64,000 bases of DNA, from the NCBI GenBank assembly GCA_026414225.1, contig JAOAJK010000001.1:196886-260885 (forward strand), in the 5' to 3' direction. Made by a program: the position numbers and the translations under genes. The stretch is from Thermoplasmata archaeon (GTDB lineage Archaea; Thermoplasmatota; Thermoplasmata; Lutacidiplasmatales; SKW197). The notes beneath the pieces were generated by a model, which ran no database searches, was not told the origin of the DNA, and saw only the letters and a list, made by a program, of their open reading frames with translations. How positions within the stretch are numbered: position 1 is the first letter of the stretch; every line of letters starts with the position of its first letter. Positions 14,291 to 27,706 of this stretch are shown piece by piece.

Positions 14291-15142
14291 ATGGTGATAA
14301 AGAAGGTAGGCGTGGCAGGTGCGGGAACAATGGGTGCAGGAATTGCCCAGGTGTGTGCGATGTATGGGTATGAGGTGGTTCTCAGGGACATTGATGAGAT
14401 GTTCATAAAAAATGGAAAAACCAACATCGAGAAAAGCTTGAACAAGTTTGTGGAGAAAGGGAAACTTGCGCAGGAGGCAAAAACAGAGATTCTGGGGAGA
14501 ATAAAAACCACGGTCAACATGGAGGAGTTTAGGGATTGTGACCTCATAATCGAGGCAATTGTGGAAAACCCGGAACTGAAGAAGGCATTCTTCAAGGACC
14601 TGAGCAAAATTGCAAAGCCAGAAGCAATCTTTGCTTCTAACACATCCTCCATTTCAATCACAGAACTTGCAGCTGTCTCAGGCAGAGGCGATAAATTTAT
14701 CGGGATGCACTTCATGAATCCGGTGCCGCTGATGAAACTTGTCGAGATAATCCGCGGTGCCCAGACAAGCGAGGAAACGACAAAAATCATAGTGGAGATG
14801 ACAAAGAAACTGGACAAGATTCCTGTCGAGGTGAACGATTCACCTGGATTTGTCTCAAACCGCGTGCTCATGCCGATGATAAATGAAGCGATTTTCTGCG
14901 TATATGAAGGTGTGGCAACCCCCGAGGCAATAGATGCGGTGATGAAACTCGGAATGAACCACCCCATGGGACCACTGGAACTCGCTGACCTTATAGGGCT
15001 CGATGTCTGCCTCAGCATTCTTGAAGTGCTTTACAACAATTTCAACGACCCGAAGTACCGGCCCTGCCCCCTGCTGAGGAAGATGGTGAAGGCGGGATAT
15101 CTGGGAAGGAAAACGGGTAGAGGATTCTACAAATACTCTTAA
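14291..15142 (+). CDS. 3-hydroxyacyl-CoA dehydrogenase (3-hydroxybutyryl-CoA dehydrogenase-like)
   Basis: [31 protein letters not shown] Rossmann motif; [38 protein letters not shown]. Confidence 0.93.
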
Positions 15143-16149
15143 GCTCTTCTCCCCACAATCGGGCGATGGGGAGGTACATACTTTATTTGGGGAAGTACAG
15201 CATCCTCAATCACAATTATTTCACCAAAATAAGCGTCCACTATCTTGGAGCCACGCTTAATTTCCCGCCGCACCTTTTCCACATCCATCCTTGAAAATAA
15301 CGCAAGACACTGATCTGTTGTTTCCTCCTTCAGCAGCTCGAGGAGTTCGAGGGCACTTGCGTTTCTGCTCGCGAACACGACGGGTGTGATTGCGAATGTG
15401 AGGGAGTATTCGCTCACATTCTCGCCCTCAAAAACAAATCTTATCCTGTTTTCTTTTACACTGGCTTCACTTGGATAAGCAAGGTTGATTTCACATTTTT
15501 CATAAGCTGCATCAGGATACATCTCGATATCCTTCAGCTCCCGCATGAAAATGGTGTCCACCCTTTCCACAATTTTGTTCCTTGCATCTATCACTGCTTC
15601 CCGGAGCGAAACCGTTTCGTCAAACCTTATCTCAAACCGCATTTTCGTAAAGAACTGTGTCAGCTTGTTTCTATAACTATAGTGTTCAACCAGCTTTGGA
15701 TTTATCTGAACCGCACCCTTTGGAGAATACAGGAAACAACCAAGAGTGTAACCGTCTGTCACCACCGAGAGGTAGCTCTTTTTCATCGAAGCCCGGGAGG
15801 AAAGCATGTGGTCGTCAATTTCGCTGTGAAACATTGGGGTTGACTCGGTGCCCATTGTGGATTCAAGGTAGTCCTCCCTGAATGGATGAGAATGATAAAG
15901 CCCTACAATCCCTACCTTCCTAGGATAACGCATCGCAAGATTCATTTCCTCCACCGGACTTGCCTCGGCACCGTATTTTGACTGGGAAATATACTGGGTT
16001 GCAGGAACCGCATCCAGTACAAACACATCTTCACAATCAAAAAAACCCACCAGCCACCCCACTACCTCAAATCCATGCTCCTTTGCCTGCTCCAGGGCGT
16101 GGTTCAGAATTTTTTCCTTTGCTGCATTCATCAACACAATTTCAGCCAT
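15139..16149 (-). CDS. JAB/MPN (JAMM-type) putative isopeptidase with large C-terminal extension; part of ubiquitin-like operon
   Basis: [11 protein letters not shown] (Glu), GLYHSHP and FHSEIDDHM give an E...HxHP...S-x2-D JAMM-like pattern; about 190 aa C-terminal region of unknown family. Starts 1 nt after the E1 stop. Confidence 0.85.
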
Positions 16150-16150
16150 T

Positions 16151-16978
16151 TCACATCAACTTTTCAAAGAGTTCATCAATATTTTCCAGCTCTTCAAACT
16201 TCCGCTTATCCATTCTTTCCTTACCCTTCTTCCCGCATACCTGACACCTAGGATTCCTTTTCCAGTTCACCACATTCATCGTTCCGTTGAGACCATCGTA
16301 GATGATGTAAGGCACGGTGTTTCCGAAACCGAGAAGAATTTTTAAAGCTTCCTGGCATTCGAGGGCTGCAATTATGCCCATCGTTGTAGGCAGTGAGACC
16401 GCGTGGCATGTGCCCGTCTCATGTCCCTCCGTTTTCACAGGATAGTCGGTTTTCTGGCTCACTACATGACACCTGTAGCATGCGGTCTTGCCTGGGATTA
16501 TTGTGTGCACCGAACCCCTGATTCCATCCAGGCTGGTGCCTCCATCAACATATGTCTTCTTAAGCTCAACGCATTTAGCATTTATAAACATTCTCACACC
16601 GAAGCTGTCAACACAGCCCAGCACAATATCCGATTTTTCAAGTTCCTTGATGAAGGCCTCGTGACCGTCGCCAGTAATATCAAGAGGATACGGAATAATT
16701 TCAACATCTGGATTCACATGGTTCAAATATTCCTTCAGGGCCTCCACCTTCTTCATCCCCACCTGCTCGGTTTTATATATCATCCTGTTTAAATTTTCCA
16801 TCTCAAGCGTGTCATAGTCAAATATCACAATTTTACCCGCCCCAAGCCGCGTCAGAATGTCCGCGCACACGGCCCCGAGTCCTCCTGCACCCACAATCAG
16901 AATTCTTTTCTCCCTCAGCTTTTCCAAGTCTGCATGCGGAAAAATTGCAAGACGGGAATAGCGCGCTGGGGTGGTCAT
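16151..16978 (-). CDS. E1-like ubiquitin-activating enzyme (ThiF/MoeB/UbaA family)
   Basis: RILIVGAGGLGAVCADILTRLGAGKIVIFDYDTLEMENLNR, DIVLGCVDSFGVRMFINAKC, CYRCH...CQVCG zinc ligands, candidate catalytic Cys in ETGTCHAVSLPTTMGIIAALECQEALKILLG. Confidence 0.93.
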   Translation of the reverse strand: MTTPARYSRLAIFPHADLEKLREKRILIVGAGGLGAVCADILTRLGAGKIVIFDYDTLEMENLNRMIYKTEQVGMKKVEALKEYLNHVNPDVEIIPYPLDITGDGHEAFIKELEKSDIVLGCVDSFGVRMFINAKCVELKKTYVDGGTSLDGIRGSVHTIIPGKTACYRCHVVSQKTDYPVKTEGHETGTCHAVSLPTTMGIIAALECQEALKILLGFGNTVPYIIYDGLNGTMNVVNWKRNPRCQVCGKKGKERMDKRKFEELENIDELFEKLM

Positions 16979-17463
16979 AAATATCCCTGTCTTATTGCCA
17001 TCGTGAGCACGCTTTGGACCCAGTAAGACACCTCACGCTTCAGATACAGGGCGATGCTGCAGTGCTCGTTCCACCAGAAATTCTGCTCCATGTGCATATC
17101 GCAGATTCTCAGCCCGAGGACCTCATCCTCGAGCTTCCTGTCAGTATAATCTATCAGCACGGGCACCCTCGCCGCAGGCGGTGTGTGGGGATAGGTTTTC
17201 TTAAGCACGAGTTCAATATCAAACTGATAGTTCTGCGCTGTGATTGTCCCCTCCCATCTGGTTGCGTCCTCATTCACCGGTTTTATCGAAAACCATCTCG
17301 GGTTTTCTCCCACCTTCTCCCAGTACTCGATGTACTCTATGAGTTTCACGAGTGCATACTTCTCTTCCTTGATTCTGAGACCCCACTTTTTGTCACCAGG
17401 GGAAGCTACTGTCGCGCACTGCAGGAAGTGGAACAGGTCTGGTTCTTTGGGAATGGATCTCAC
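16975..17463 (-). CDS. E2/UBC-like ubiquitin-conjugating enzyme
   Basis: 162 aa, GTG start. UBC-like core RWEGTITAQNYQFDIELVLKKTYPHTPPAARVPV...HMEQNFWWNEHCSIALYLKREVSYWVQSVLTMAI, resembling the E2 YPxxPP motif and Cys-loop. Overlaps E1 start by ATGA. Confidence 0.8.
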   Translation of the reverse strand: MRSIPKEPDLFHFLQCATVASPGDKKWGLRIKEEKYALVKLIEYIEYWEKVGENPRWFSIKPVNEDATRWEGTITAQNYQFDIELVLKKTYPHTPPAARVPVLIDYTDRKLEDEVLGLRICDMHMEQNFWWNEHCSIALYLKREVSYWVQSVLTMAIRQGYL

Positions 17464-17717
17464 CCAACAACCGATGGGTCTATCACATGAATCACTGTGT
17501 TTTTCTCAGCCACTTCTCCGACTGTTCCACCTGTTATAGGGGTGCCTGCCGGATAGGTGGCACTCAGAATTGTCGGGTCCTTATTCTGCTGCTTAGCCGC
17601 GATTACAAGGGCTTCCTGGAACAGCATGCTATCTGGCACTTTTACAGTCACCACGGGCTTGTCCGGTTCACTTATAAATATGAATCTAAGGGTTACTACC
17701 GCCATGGCTATCACCAT
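17460..17717 (-). CDS. Ubiquitin-like beta-grasp protein with C-terminal glycine
   Basis: MVIAMAVVTLRFIFISEPDKPVVTVKVPDSMLFQEALVIAAKQQNKDPTILSATYPAGTPITGGTVGEVAEKNTVIHVIDPSVVG*: beta-beta-alpha-beta-type pattern and terminal Gly. GTGA overlap with E2. The track ORF to 17960 is over-extended into the transposase. Confidence 0.8.
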   Translation of the reverse strand: MVIAMAVVTLRFIFISEPDKPVVTVKVPDSMLFQEALVIAAKQQNKDPTILSATYPAGTPITGGTVGEVAEKNTVIHVIDPSVVG

Positions 17718-17825: not shown

Positions 17826-18746
17826 ATGCAATGCCCACACTGTAAAATGGAAGACAAAGTCGTGAAGAGCGGTGTTAGAAAGAACAAATATGTTACAAAG
17901 CAGCGATACCTTTGCAAACGATGTAACAAGAGATTTATAGAACCAGATGGTTTTCAACACATGTCATATCCAAAGGAAATAGTCGTAAAAGTTTTGCATC
18001 TATATGTGGCGGGTTTATCTCTAAGCAAAATTAGGGAATATGTTTACCAGCACGAGGGATTTCATTTGCGGGACAGTGTGATTGGATACTGGATAAAAAA
18101 ATATGCACATATGCTTTCTACCTTTGAGAAAACGCTGATACCAAAGGTAAAAGGGAGAATACACACGGATGAAGTGTTTGTGAGAGTGGGAACCGACACA
18201 TTTTACTCGATAAATACTATAGATAGTAAGACAAAATATATCCTGGCGACCACTTTCGTTAAGAAAAGAACGAAATTAAGCTGTAGAGTTCATTTCAAAA
18301 AACTAAAAGAAAAGATAGGCGCACAGGTAAAAGAGCGTTGGAAAAAGGAGAGGGATAAACCACAGGAAGAAAGAAAACTCATCACATTCGTATCTGACAA
18401 ATTTGAGGGGTACAAGGATGGCTTCAATCATTATTTCTATCGTTTTGGAAGATTAGTCTTTGGTGTTCCAATTGCTTGCAAGAAGTATGGCCTAAAACAC
18501 AATAACAACCCAATTGAAAGAGAAAATGAAGATATAAAACAACGATACAAAACTATGAGGGGTTTCAAGTCCTTTTCAGGTGGTGAAGCTTTTTTTGAAT
18601 TGAGAAGGATATATCGAAATTTCGTTCATATTCATCCAACACTTAACAAAACTCCTGCTGAAGCCTCTGGAATAACCCTTCCCCTTGGGAGAAACAAATT
18701 CCTGGGAATTATTTTTTTTTTTGATTTTTATTCACCAATAGAGTGA
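17826..18746 (+). mobile_element. IS transposase with N-terminal zinc-ribbon and DDE-type core (IS6/IS240-like)
   Basis: MQCPHCKMEDKVVKSGVRKNKYVTKQRYLCKRCNKRF zinc ribbon; HTDEVFVRV, FVSDKFEGYKDG, NNPIERENEDIKQRYKTMRGFKS. Terminal inverted repeats not identified by eye. Confidence 0.8.
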
Positions 18747-25703: not shown

Positions 25704-26441
25704 TCACCCCACATTCACAAACCCGAACCCCAAGCTGTTCCTCTCCCCGAAGCCAGTGTCCAGCCCGAACTCAATTATCTTCCGCTGCACAGCATCCATG
25801 TGGGTCCAGAGAAACTCCCACAAACTACCCGCGGCACCGTAACTCCGGCCTTCTACAACAAACCGCAGGTTCACCTGCTTCCTGAAAACGAACTGTTCAA
25901 ACAAATCGTAGGTCTGGATTTCCGTGCCGTAAAAATCGTTGTATTTCTTTATCAGGTTCTCGCTCACCTGCTTCAGGAACGCTTCAAACGGATATTTGGG
26001 ACGCCAGTACACATACCTCCGTTTCCTCTCCTCCAAGGGAATACAGTACCTGTCGTACAGTTTCTCAGGAATCCGCACGATGACTGGAGTGCTACACTCC
26101 ACCCTGGGTTTCTCTCCGAGCCGGACCTCGAACACCGAGAAATCAGAGAGCTGGAACTGCATCTCCCCAATGTTTATCGCCTCACCTTGCCTCAAACAAT
26201 CACCGATTCCCTTCACCAGTTCGCTGCTCGGCGAGGAGATTATGAAATTCCTCATATCCCCGGCGGCGACACTTTTCTGCGGAAAAATTCCGGAAAAACA
26301 GAAAAACTTGTAGCCAGATTTCTCATGTAGTCCTGGGAAACCGCTCCGTCTTATCAGATCGTAAACAAACCCCTGGAGCTTGTGGCTCTCATTGTTGATT
26401 TCCTGCGATTTGGTTGCCCTCAACCTTAAAATTATTCTCAT
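25704..26441 (-). CDS. cas6: Cas6-family CRISPR RNA endoribonuclease (orphan)
   Basis: RAMP-like N-terminus MRIILRLRATKSQEINNESHKLQGFVYDLI, YKFFCFSGIFPQ, and C-terminal Gly-rich GFGERNSLGFGFVNVG. Confidence 0.8.
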   Translation of the reverse strand: MRIILRLRATKSQEINNESHKLQGFVYDLIRRSGFPGLHEKSGYKFFCFSGIFPQKSVAAGDMRNFIISSPSSELVKGIGDCLRQGEAINIGEMQFQLSDFSVFEVRLGEKPRVECSTPVIVRIPEKLYDRYCIPLEERKRRYVYWRPKYPFEAFLKQVSENLIKKYNDFYGTEIQTYDLFEQFVFRKQVNLRFVVEGRSYGAAGSLWEFLWTHMDAVQRKIIEFGLDTGFGERNSLGFGFVNVG

Positions 26442-26449
26442 GCCCTCAC

Positions 26450-27706
26450 CTAAATTTCGATCGTCTCCCCGCATTCCAGCTTCTTTGAAGGATAATCCTC
26501 CTTCTTCACATCCGGGAAAATCAGCACATTCTTCCCGATCTCCATGTTCTCAGGCACCACCGCATTCTTTCCAATCACGGTAATCCCAGAATTCAGATAT
26601 TCCGGATACTTCTTGTTGGGCACGCTTTCATGCCCCGCACCGATGTGGGTCCCTGCCCCTACAATCACATTCTTGTCAAGAATCACTGTTTCCAGCACCG
26701 CATTCTCCCCGATCACGCAGTCCTGCATTATGACCGAATCATGCACGAATGCCCCTTTCTTCACAATCACTCCAGGTGAAAGCACTGAATGGACCACCTT
26801 GCCCTCTATTCTGCACCCCGGTGACACAATGCTGTTCAGCACCGTGCCTCCAGAACCCACATAGGCAGGGGCCCTGTCGCTGCGCCTCATCTCGGAAAGG
26901 TTCGTCCGGAGATTCCATTCCTCAAGTTTTAGCTGTGAATTTTCGTCCAGGGCATCCATGTTCGCCTCCCAGTAAGATTGAATTGTCCCCACATCCCTCC
27001 AGTAACCTGTGAATGGATAGGCATAGACCCTGTAGTTCTTTATCATCCAGCCAATGATGTCCTTCCCGAAATCATTTCCAAGCTTTTTCTTCAGCACATT
27101 TTCGAGCACATCCATGTTGAACGCATAGATCCCCATCGAGGCAATGTTGCTTTTTGGCGACTTCGGTTTCTCCTCCCAGTCCACGATTCTTCCGTCTTCG
27201 TCCTTGATTGCGATTCCAAACCTGCTGGCTTCGCTCAACGGCACTTCCATCGTGGCAATTGTCAGGTCCGCATTTTTCTCCTTGTGGTAGTTCACGAGGT
27301 CCGAGTAGTCCATCTTGTAGATGTGGTCCCCAGAGAGAATAAGGACCCGCTCTGGGGAAAAATCCCTGATGAAACCCATATTCTGGTAGATTGCATCCGC
27401 TGTGCCCTTGTACCAGTCAAATTCCTTCTCACCTGTTCTCGGCGGCAAAATTTTCGCAACCCTAGAACGCCCCACATAATCCCAGGCACTTCCACTCCCG
27501 ATGTGGTCCATCAGTGAAAGGGGCTTATACTGGGTGAGAATCCCGAGGACCCTGACACCCGAGTTGCAGGCATTGCTCAAGGTGAAATCGATTATTCTGT
27601 ACATCCCGCCGAACGGCACTGCTGGCTTCGCTCTCTTCTTCGCAAGAATGCTCAACCGCGAGCCAACACCCCCTGCAAGTAGCATTCCAACCGTCTTCCA
27701 CATCAC
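26450..27706 (-). CDS. glgC: Glucose-1-phosphate adenylyltransferase-like protein
   Basis: LLAGGVGSRLSILAKKRAKPAVPFGGMYRIIDFTLSNACNSG; C-terminal left-handed beta-helix hexapeptides. Confidence 0.88.
   Translation of the reverse strand: MMWKTVGMLLAGGVGSRLSILAKKRAKPAVPFGGMYRIIDFTLSNACNSGVRVLGILTQYKPLSLMDHIGSGSAWDYVGRSRVAKILPPRTGEKEFDWYKGTADAIYQNMGFIRDFSPERVLILSGDHIYKMDYSDLVNYHKEKNADLTIATMEVPLSEASRFGIAIKDEDGRIVDWEEKPKSPKSNIASMGIYAFNMDVLENVLKKKLGNDFGKDIIGWMIKNYRVYAYPFTGYWRDVGTIQSYWEANMDALDENSQLKLEEWNLRTNLSEMRRSDRAPAYVGSGGTVLNSIVSPGCRIEGKVVHSVLSPGVIVKKGAFVHDSVIMQDCVIGENAVLETVILDKNVIVGAGTHIGAGHESVPNKKYPEYLNSGITVIGKNAVVPENMEIGKNVLIFPDVKKEDYPSKKLECGETIEI

Follow-up and report, generated by a model that had tools for sequence, protein, structure and literature searches.

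A probable UFM1-type protein conjugation operon with a JAMM protease in Thermoplasmatota archaea

The window analysed here, a 64-kb stretch of DNA on contig 11 of a Thermoplasmatota genome of 1.9 Mb, carries a compact cluster of genes for a ubiquitin-like protein (Ubl), an E2, an E1 and a JAB protease, and raises the question of which conjugation system this set is related to and whether it serves phage defence or the modification of the cell's own proteins.

Organization and coding status of the operon

A first-pass annotation had described the locus as a complete Ubl-E2-E1-JAB set in an archaeon, with no RING gene in the operon, and the open reading frames found at 15139-17717 agree with it in number, order, strand and place:

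17460..17705, minus strand: UFM1-like modifier Ubl, 81 aa, C-terminus Val-Val-Gly
17460..17717, minus strand: the same Ubl from an alternative ATG start at 17717, 85 aa
16975..17463, minus strand: UFC1-like E2, 162 aa, GTG start, predicted catalytic Cys121
16151..16978, minus strand: UBA5-like E1, 275 aa, predicted catalytic Cys191
15139..16149, minus strand: JAMM (JAB/MPN+) metalloprotease, 336 aa, C-terminal domain of ~190 aa

For the Ubl, alignment with relatives favours the ATG at 17705. The Ubl and E2 genes share a GTGA overlap, in which the E2 GTG start overlaps the Ubl stop, the E2 and E1 genes share an ATGA overlap, and a gap of 1 nt separates E1 from JAB; these coordinates bear out the earlier proposal of one coupled unit, and the four genes form a translationally coupled Ubl-E2-E1-JAB operon. 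Comparison with the sister species (G001, locus L008), at a dS of ~1 or more for the operon, gave dN/dS values of 0.00 for Ubl, 0.015 for E2, 0.029 for E1 and 0.039 for JAB, and the secretion genes adjoining the operon gave ~0.01. The GC content of the operon is 47.6% versus 48.0% for the 64-kb window. The four ORFs are maintained protein-coding genes under purifying selection, not chance ORFs. The same gene order is common to ~20 Thermoplasmatota loci wherever the contig spans them (that of L012 ends within E1); no recognisable Ubl was found in L014. Directly upstream of the window Ubl lies a divergent DDE transposase gene (17826-18746), which is absent at the equivalent site in the sister species.

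Relationship of the conjugation proteins to UFC1, UBA5 and UFM1

The earlier assignment of the 162-aa protein as a UBC-fold E2 was upheld and could be narrowed. The protein matches Pfam UFC1 with 48.7 bits (cut-off 25; E 8.6e-13) and scores under the cut-off of the general Pfam family UQ_con, and 26 of 26 matches in a sequence search of the PDB are UFC1. It is 31% identical to human UFC1, whose Cys116 (GGKIC) aligns with Cys121 (GLRIC), a residue invariant in all 15 archaeal sequences; TRW, WF and a YP...P run are common to the archaeal E2 and human UFC1, and the HPN motif was not found in the E2 sequence. Profile-profile comparison (hhalign) of the archaeal E2 with human and Leishmania UFC1 gave a probability of 97.7% (E 2e-12). 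By sequence, the E2 belongs to the UFC1 family, with a predicted catalytic cysteine.

In the PDB the E1 matched UBA5 best (2e-49), followed by MoeB (1.4e-30) and ThiF (4e-25); a MoeB-like paralogue from one carrier-group genome, used as a control, scored ThiF and MoeB over UBA5. A maximum-likelihood tree that also took in E. coli MoeB and ThiF, Uba4 and other E1-like paralogues of the same genomes recovered the operon E1s as a single group (93/89) separate from all of these, and human UBA5 grouped with the operon E1s (100/99), as a long branch that drew a warning from the tree program. Identity between the archaeal E1 and human UBA5 is ~38%. Cys191, which aligns with the catalytic Cys250 of UBA5, is invariant among the operon E1s, as are the zinc cysteines 167, 170, 245 and 248 and the SLPTTM motif, and LPTTM is found in the operon E1s and in none of the paralogues. 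The alignments and the tree identify the E1 as a putative UBA5-type single-domain enzyme. Its C-terminus in the window genus, ENIDELFEKLM, is similar to the sequence through which human UBA5 binds UFC1 (ESLEDLMAKMKNM; PMC8481289); such tails occur in L013 and perhaps L014 and in none of the remaining relatives, and the likeness is suggestive only.

The likeness of the Ubl to UFM1 is weak from sequence alone and clearer from the predicted fold. Scans of the single protein against Pfam, NCBIfam and PADLOC families gave no match, phmmer against the PDB gave a UBA5-UFM1 construct as the sole match (E 0.93), and a search with the archaeal Ubl profile returned only T. brucei UFM1 (E 1.3). Ufm1 is the only Pfam family touched by any member of the Ubl group (0.16), identity to human UFM1 is ~28%, and hhalign of the archaeal Ubl against three eukaryotic UFM1s gave E 2e-5 (77%). 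A profile with human UFM1 built in matched UFM1 strongly and was discarded as circular. The AF2 model (pLDDT 91.3) supports the beta-grasp protein ending in Gly of the first-pass annotation: the top 14 Foldseek matches in the PDB are all UFM1 (E 4.1e-6 to 2.8e-4), on which the model superposes with TM 0.81-0.87 at 1.2-1.8 A, and SUMO follows at TM ~0.70. The core of the protein terminates in V-G in all 20 loci having a Ubl, near-duplicates among them, and the window protein ends Val-Val-Gly, with a single Gly rather than Gly-Gly. The modelled fold, together with the one Gly after Val, indicates that the Ubl is a UFM1-type modifier. Four Ubls carry residues beyond the Gly (L012, L013, L027 and L028), which implies a maturation protease. 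That of L012 (L012:7644-7907) ends VVG-SC, SC being the extension of human pro-UFM1, the L013 extension is T, and those of L027 and L028 differ.

MoeB and ThiF belong to the same E1 family, which would also suit a ThiS/MoaD/SAMP-type sulphur-carrier or cofactor pathway in which the E2-like protein would be accessory; SAMP/Urm1 of archaea likewise combine a MoeB-related E1, a beta-grasp modifier and a JAMM desampylase. However, SAMP/Urm1 have no E2 and a Gly-Gly end, whereas the window operon has a dedicated E2 and a Ubl that terminates in VVG. Separate MoeB-like E1s are kept in the carrier genomes, the E2 has a conserved catalytic cysteine, and we know of no role for such an E2 in the known sulphur carriers, all of which makes a sulphur-carrier function very improbable.

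The JAMM protease and a proposed conjugation cascade

In the JAB protein, E28, H86, H88, S109 and D112 are invariant in 15 of 15 sequences, and the JAMM motif is kept. The fold is of the Rpn11-like MPN+ type, with structure matches that include Rpn11 and Caldiarchaeum Rpn11; the match to the desampylase model is weak. Residues about 150-336 (window 15139-15700) make up a conserved C-terminal domain of ~190 aa, mostly confidently modelled; the matches listed include no PDB relative specific to this domain.

We consider it very likely that the operon encodes a UFM1-type conjugation cascade in which a JAMM protease replaces UFSP and no E3 is recognised, and which acts reversibly, most likely on the cell's own proteins. 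The three conjugation proteins match the UFMylation core (UFM1, UBA5 and UFC1) by sequence and/or fold, and the V-G modifier end, the positions of the catalytic cysteines and the E1 zinc cysteines and SLPTTM are common to both. Eukaryotic UFMylation works with UFSP and with the UFL1 E3, which acts alongside DDRGK1 and CDK5RAP3, whereas across 13 carrier genomes we found no match for UFL1 (PF09743) and none over the cut-off for UFSP (peptidase C78, PF07910), and the archaeal version has a JAMM protease instead. It also differs in being arranged as an operon and in having a modifier that is mostly encoded already mature.

By analogy with its homologues, the E1 would use ATP to adenylate Gly81, the last residue of the modifier, and then hold the modifier as a thioester on Cys191, from which it would be handed to Cys121 of the E2. 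The E2 would then form an isopeptide bond between the modifier and lysines of target proteins; because UFL1 was not found, we propose that this transfer is direct or proceeds via an unrecognised adaptor. The JAMM protease would take the modifier off its targets and, in relatives with residues past the Gly, mature it, thus standing in for the eukaryotic UFSP cysteine proteases. Both roles have a precedent in the JAMM protease of Caldiarchaeum, similar in fold to the JAB here, which matures the ubiquitin precursor and strips ubiquitin from conjugates (PMC6043591). The Caldiarchaeum operon (CsUb, E1, E2, RING E3 and CsRpn11) likewise brings together an archaeal Ubl, E1 and E2; however, its proteins are ubiquitin-type, with a RING E3 and Gly-Gly, whereas those of the window operon are UFM1-type, with Val-Gly and no RING gene.

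When the loci were searched for a fifth gene that is conserved, only a convergent zinc-ribbon protein emerged, encoded directly downstream of JAB in 10 of 16 loci (L023:10215-10598, with equivalents in L013, L014, L016, L018, L019 and L026-L028), which in L013 and L014 has a hydrophobic N-terminal segment. Nothing in the window genus clearly corresponds to this protein, which is possibly an adaptor. Two further gene clusters were seen. In the window's genome, a second JAB-E1 pair (L056:3390-6879, contig 4) consists of a gene for an 884-aa MPN and coiled-coil protein that overlaps an E1-like gene of a different family. In the relative G426, a separate cluster (L057:8830-11414) has genes for a ubiquitin-like protein of 83 aa, for an E1 whose N-terminus is extended, perhaps by a Ubl-like segment, and for a JAB protein that probably contains a membrane segment.

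Distribution, cellular role and origin

UFC1 matches were found in 5 of 390 genomes sampled across the phylum, and a scan of ~85,000 species with two archaeal E2 motifs returned 17 loci, labelled only Thermoplasmata/Thermoplasmatota, Methanomassiliicoccales or Euryarchaeota. In the single order that was surveyed in detail, 14 of 37 genomes carry the operon and its presence is all-or-none by genus (5/5, 3/3, 3/3, 2/2 and 1/1 in the carrier genera, zero in the others), a pattern more to be expected of a cellular function than of a typical defence gene. The neighbours of the operon vary by lineage, with type II/IV secretion genes and a 3-hydroxyacyl-CoA dehydrogenase in the window and RNA polymerase genes in G338. 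A lone Cas6 gene (25704-26474; Pfam Cas_Cas6_C, 1.9e-14) lies 8 kb from the operon; no CRISPR-like repeat array was found around it in window 22-38 kb.

Bil operons carry the gene set Ubl, E2, E1 and JAB. The first-pass annotation had compared the cluster with the Bil and the Caldiarchaeum ubiquitin operons and had raised a defence system as one possibility, and an antiphage operon, of Bil type or another, whose targets are virion proteins would accord with this shared gene set, with the Cas6 gene and with the match of the E1 to PADLOC E1-E2 models (3.9e-25). In the same models, however, the E2 scores just 0.011 and the Ubl has no match, and among solved structures the E1 and E2 are nearest UBA5 and UFC1. 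Because the three conjugation proteins group with UFM1, UFC1 and UBA5, the UFM1 pathway is the closer comparison. Cas6 aside, no nearby defence genes stand out, searched viral contigs held no relatives of the operon, and with its all-or-none presence in the surveyed order the defence proposal lost ground: we regard antiphage conjugation as improbable, and distribution and neighbours point most likely to a role in modifying cellular proteins. The alternative that the annotation had offered, an ancestral-type protein modifier, proved the better half of its inference, with the ancestry as a possibility.

Published surveys place UFM1 in eukaryotes. SUMO and Ufm1 were reported to be missing from Archaea and Bacteria, with UFM1 eukaryote-specific (PMC4327156), and a second survey found UFM1 and UFC1 in eukaryotes only; it recorded UBA5 in a range of prokaryotes as well and, from the presence of UFL1 and DDRGK1 in Asgards, inferred that the E3 parts are older than the modifier (PMC10183829). 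We found no paper describing a UFM1-UFC1 system in a prokaryote in the open full-text literature, a scope outside which preprints and most subscription papers fall. In a small eukaryotic comparison set (human, C. elegans and kinetoplastids, with sequences checked against PDB chains), human and kinetoplastid proteins are 63% identical for UFC1 and 60% for UFM1, against 31% and 28% between human and archaeal proteins. The archaeal branch therefore lies outside the few eukaryotes sampled, which disfavours a recent transfer from a eukaryote.

A horizontal gain from a eukaryote followed by reduction would leave the mechanism the same and be silent on a pre-eukaryotic origin of UFM1. It would agree with the restriction of UFM1 and UFC1 to eukaryotes in the second survey, with the patchy spread of the operon in the phylum and with the SC extension that the L012 modifier shares with human pro-UFM1. 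Besides the identities above, the diversity of the archaeal sequences, their arrangement in an operon, the JAMM protease and the failure to find UFSP all argue against such a gain, which we consider possible but rather unlikely. An ancient transfer, in either direction, may have taken place, the comparison covering few eukaryotes and no Asgards. On balance, we lean modestly towards a UFM1 pathway that predates eukaryotes, in which an archaeal UFM1-UFC1-UBA5-JAMM operon functioned without UFL1, and eukaryotes would have inherited this core, added the UFL1 complex and swapped the JAMM protease for UFSP.

The archaeal operon contradicts the published absence of UFM1 and UFC1 outside eukaryotes, and as the modifier and E2 had been surveyed as eukaryote-only, it bears on the rise of the UFM1 pathway. 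It represents a minimal UFM1-type set without UFL1 that is usable for biochemistry, and it opens the origin of UFMylation to tests by phylogeny and reconstitution.
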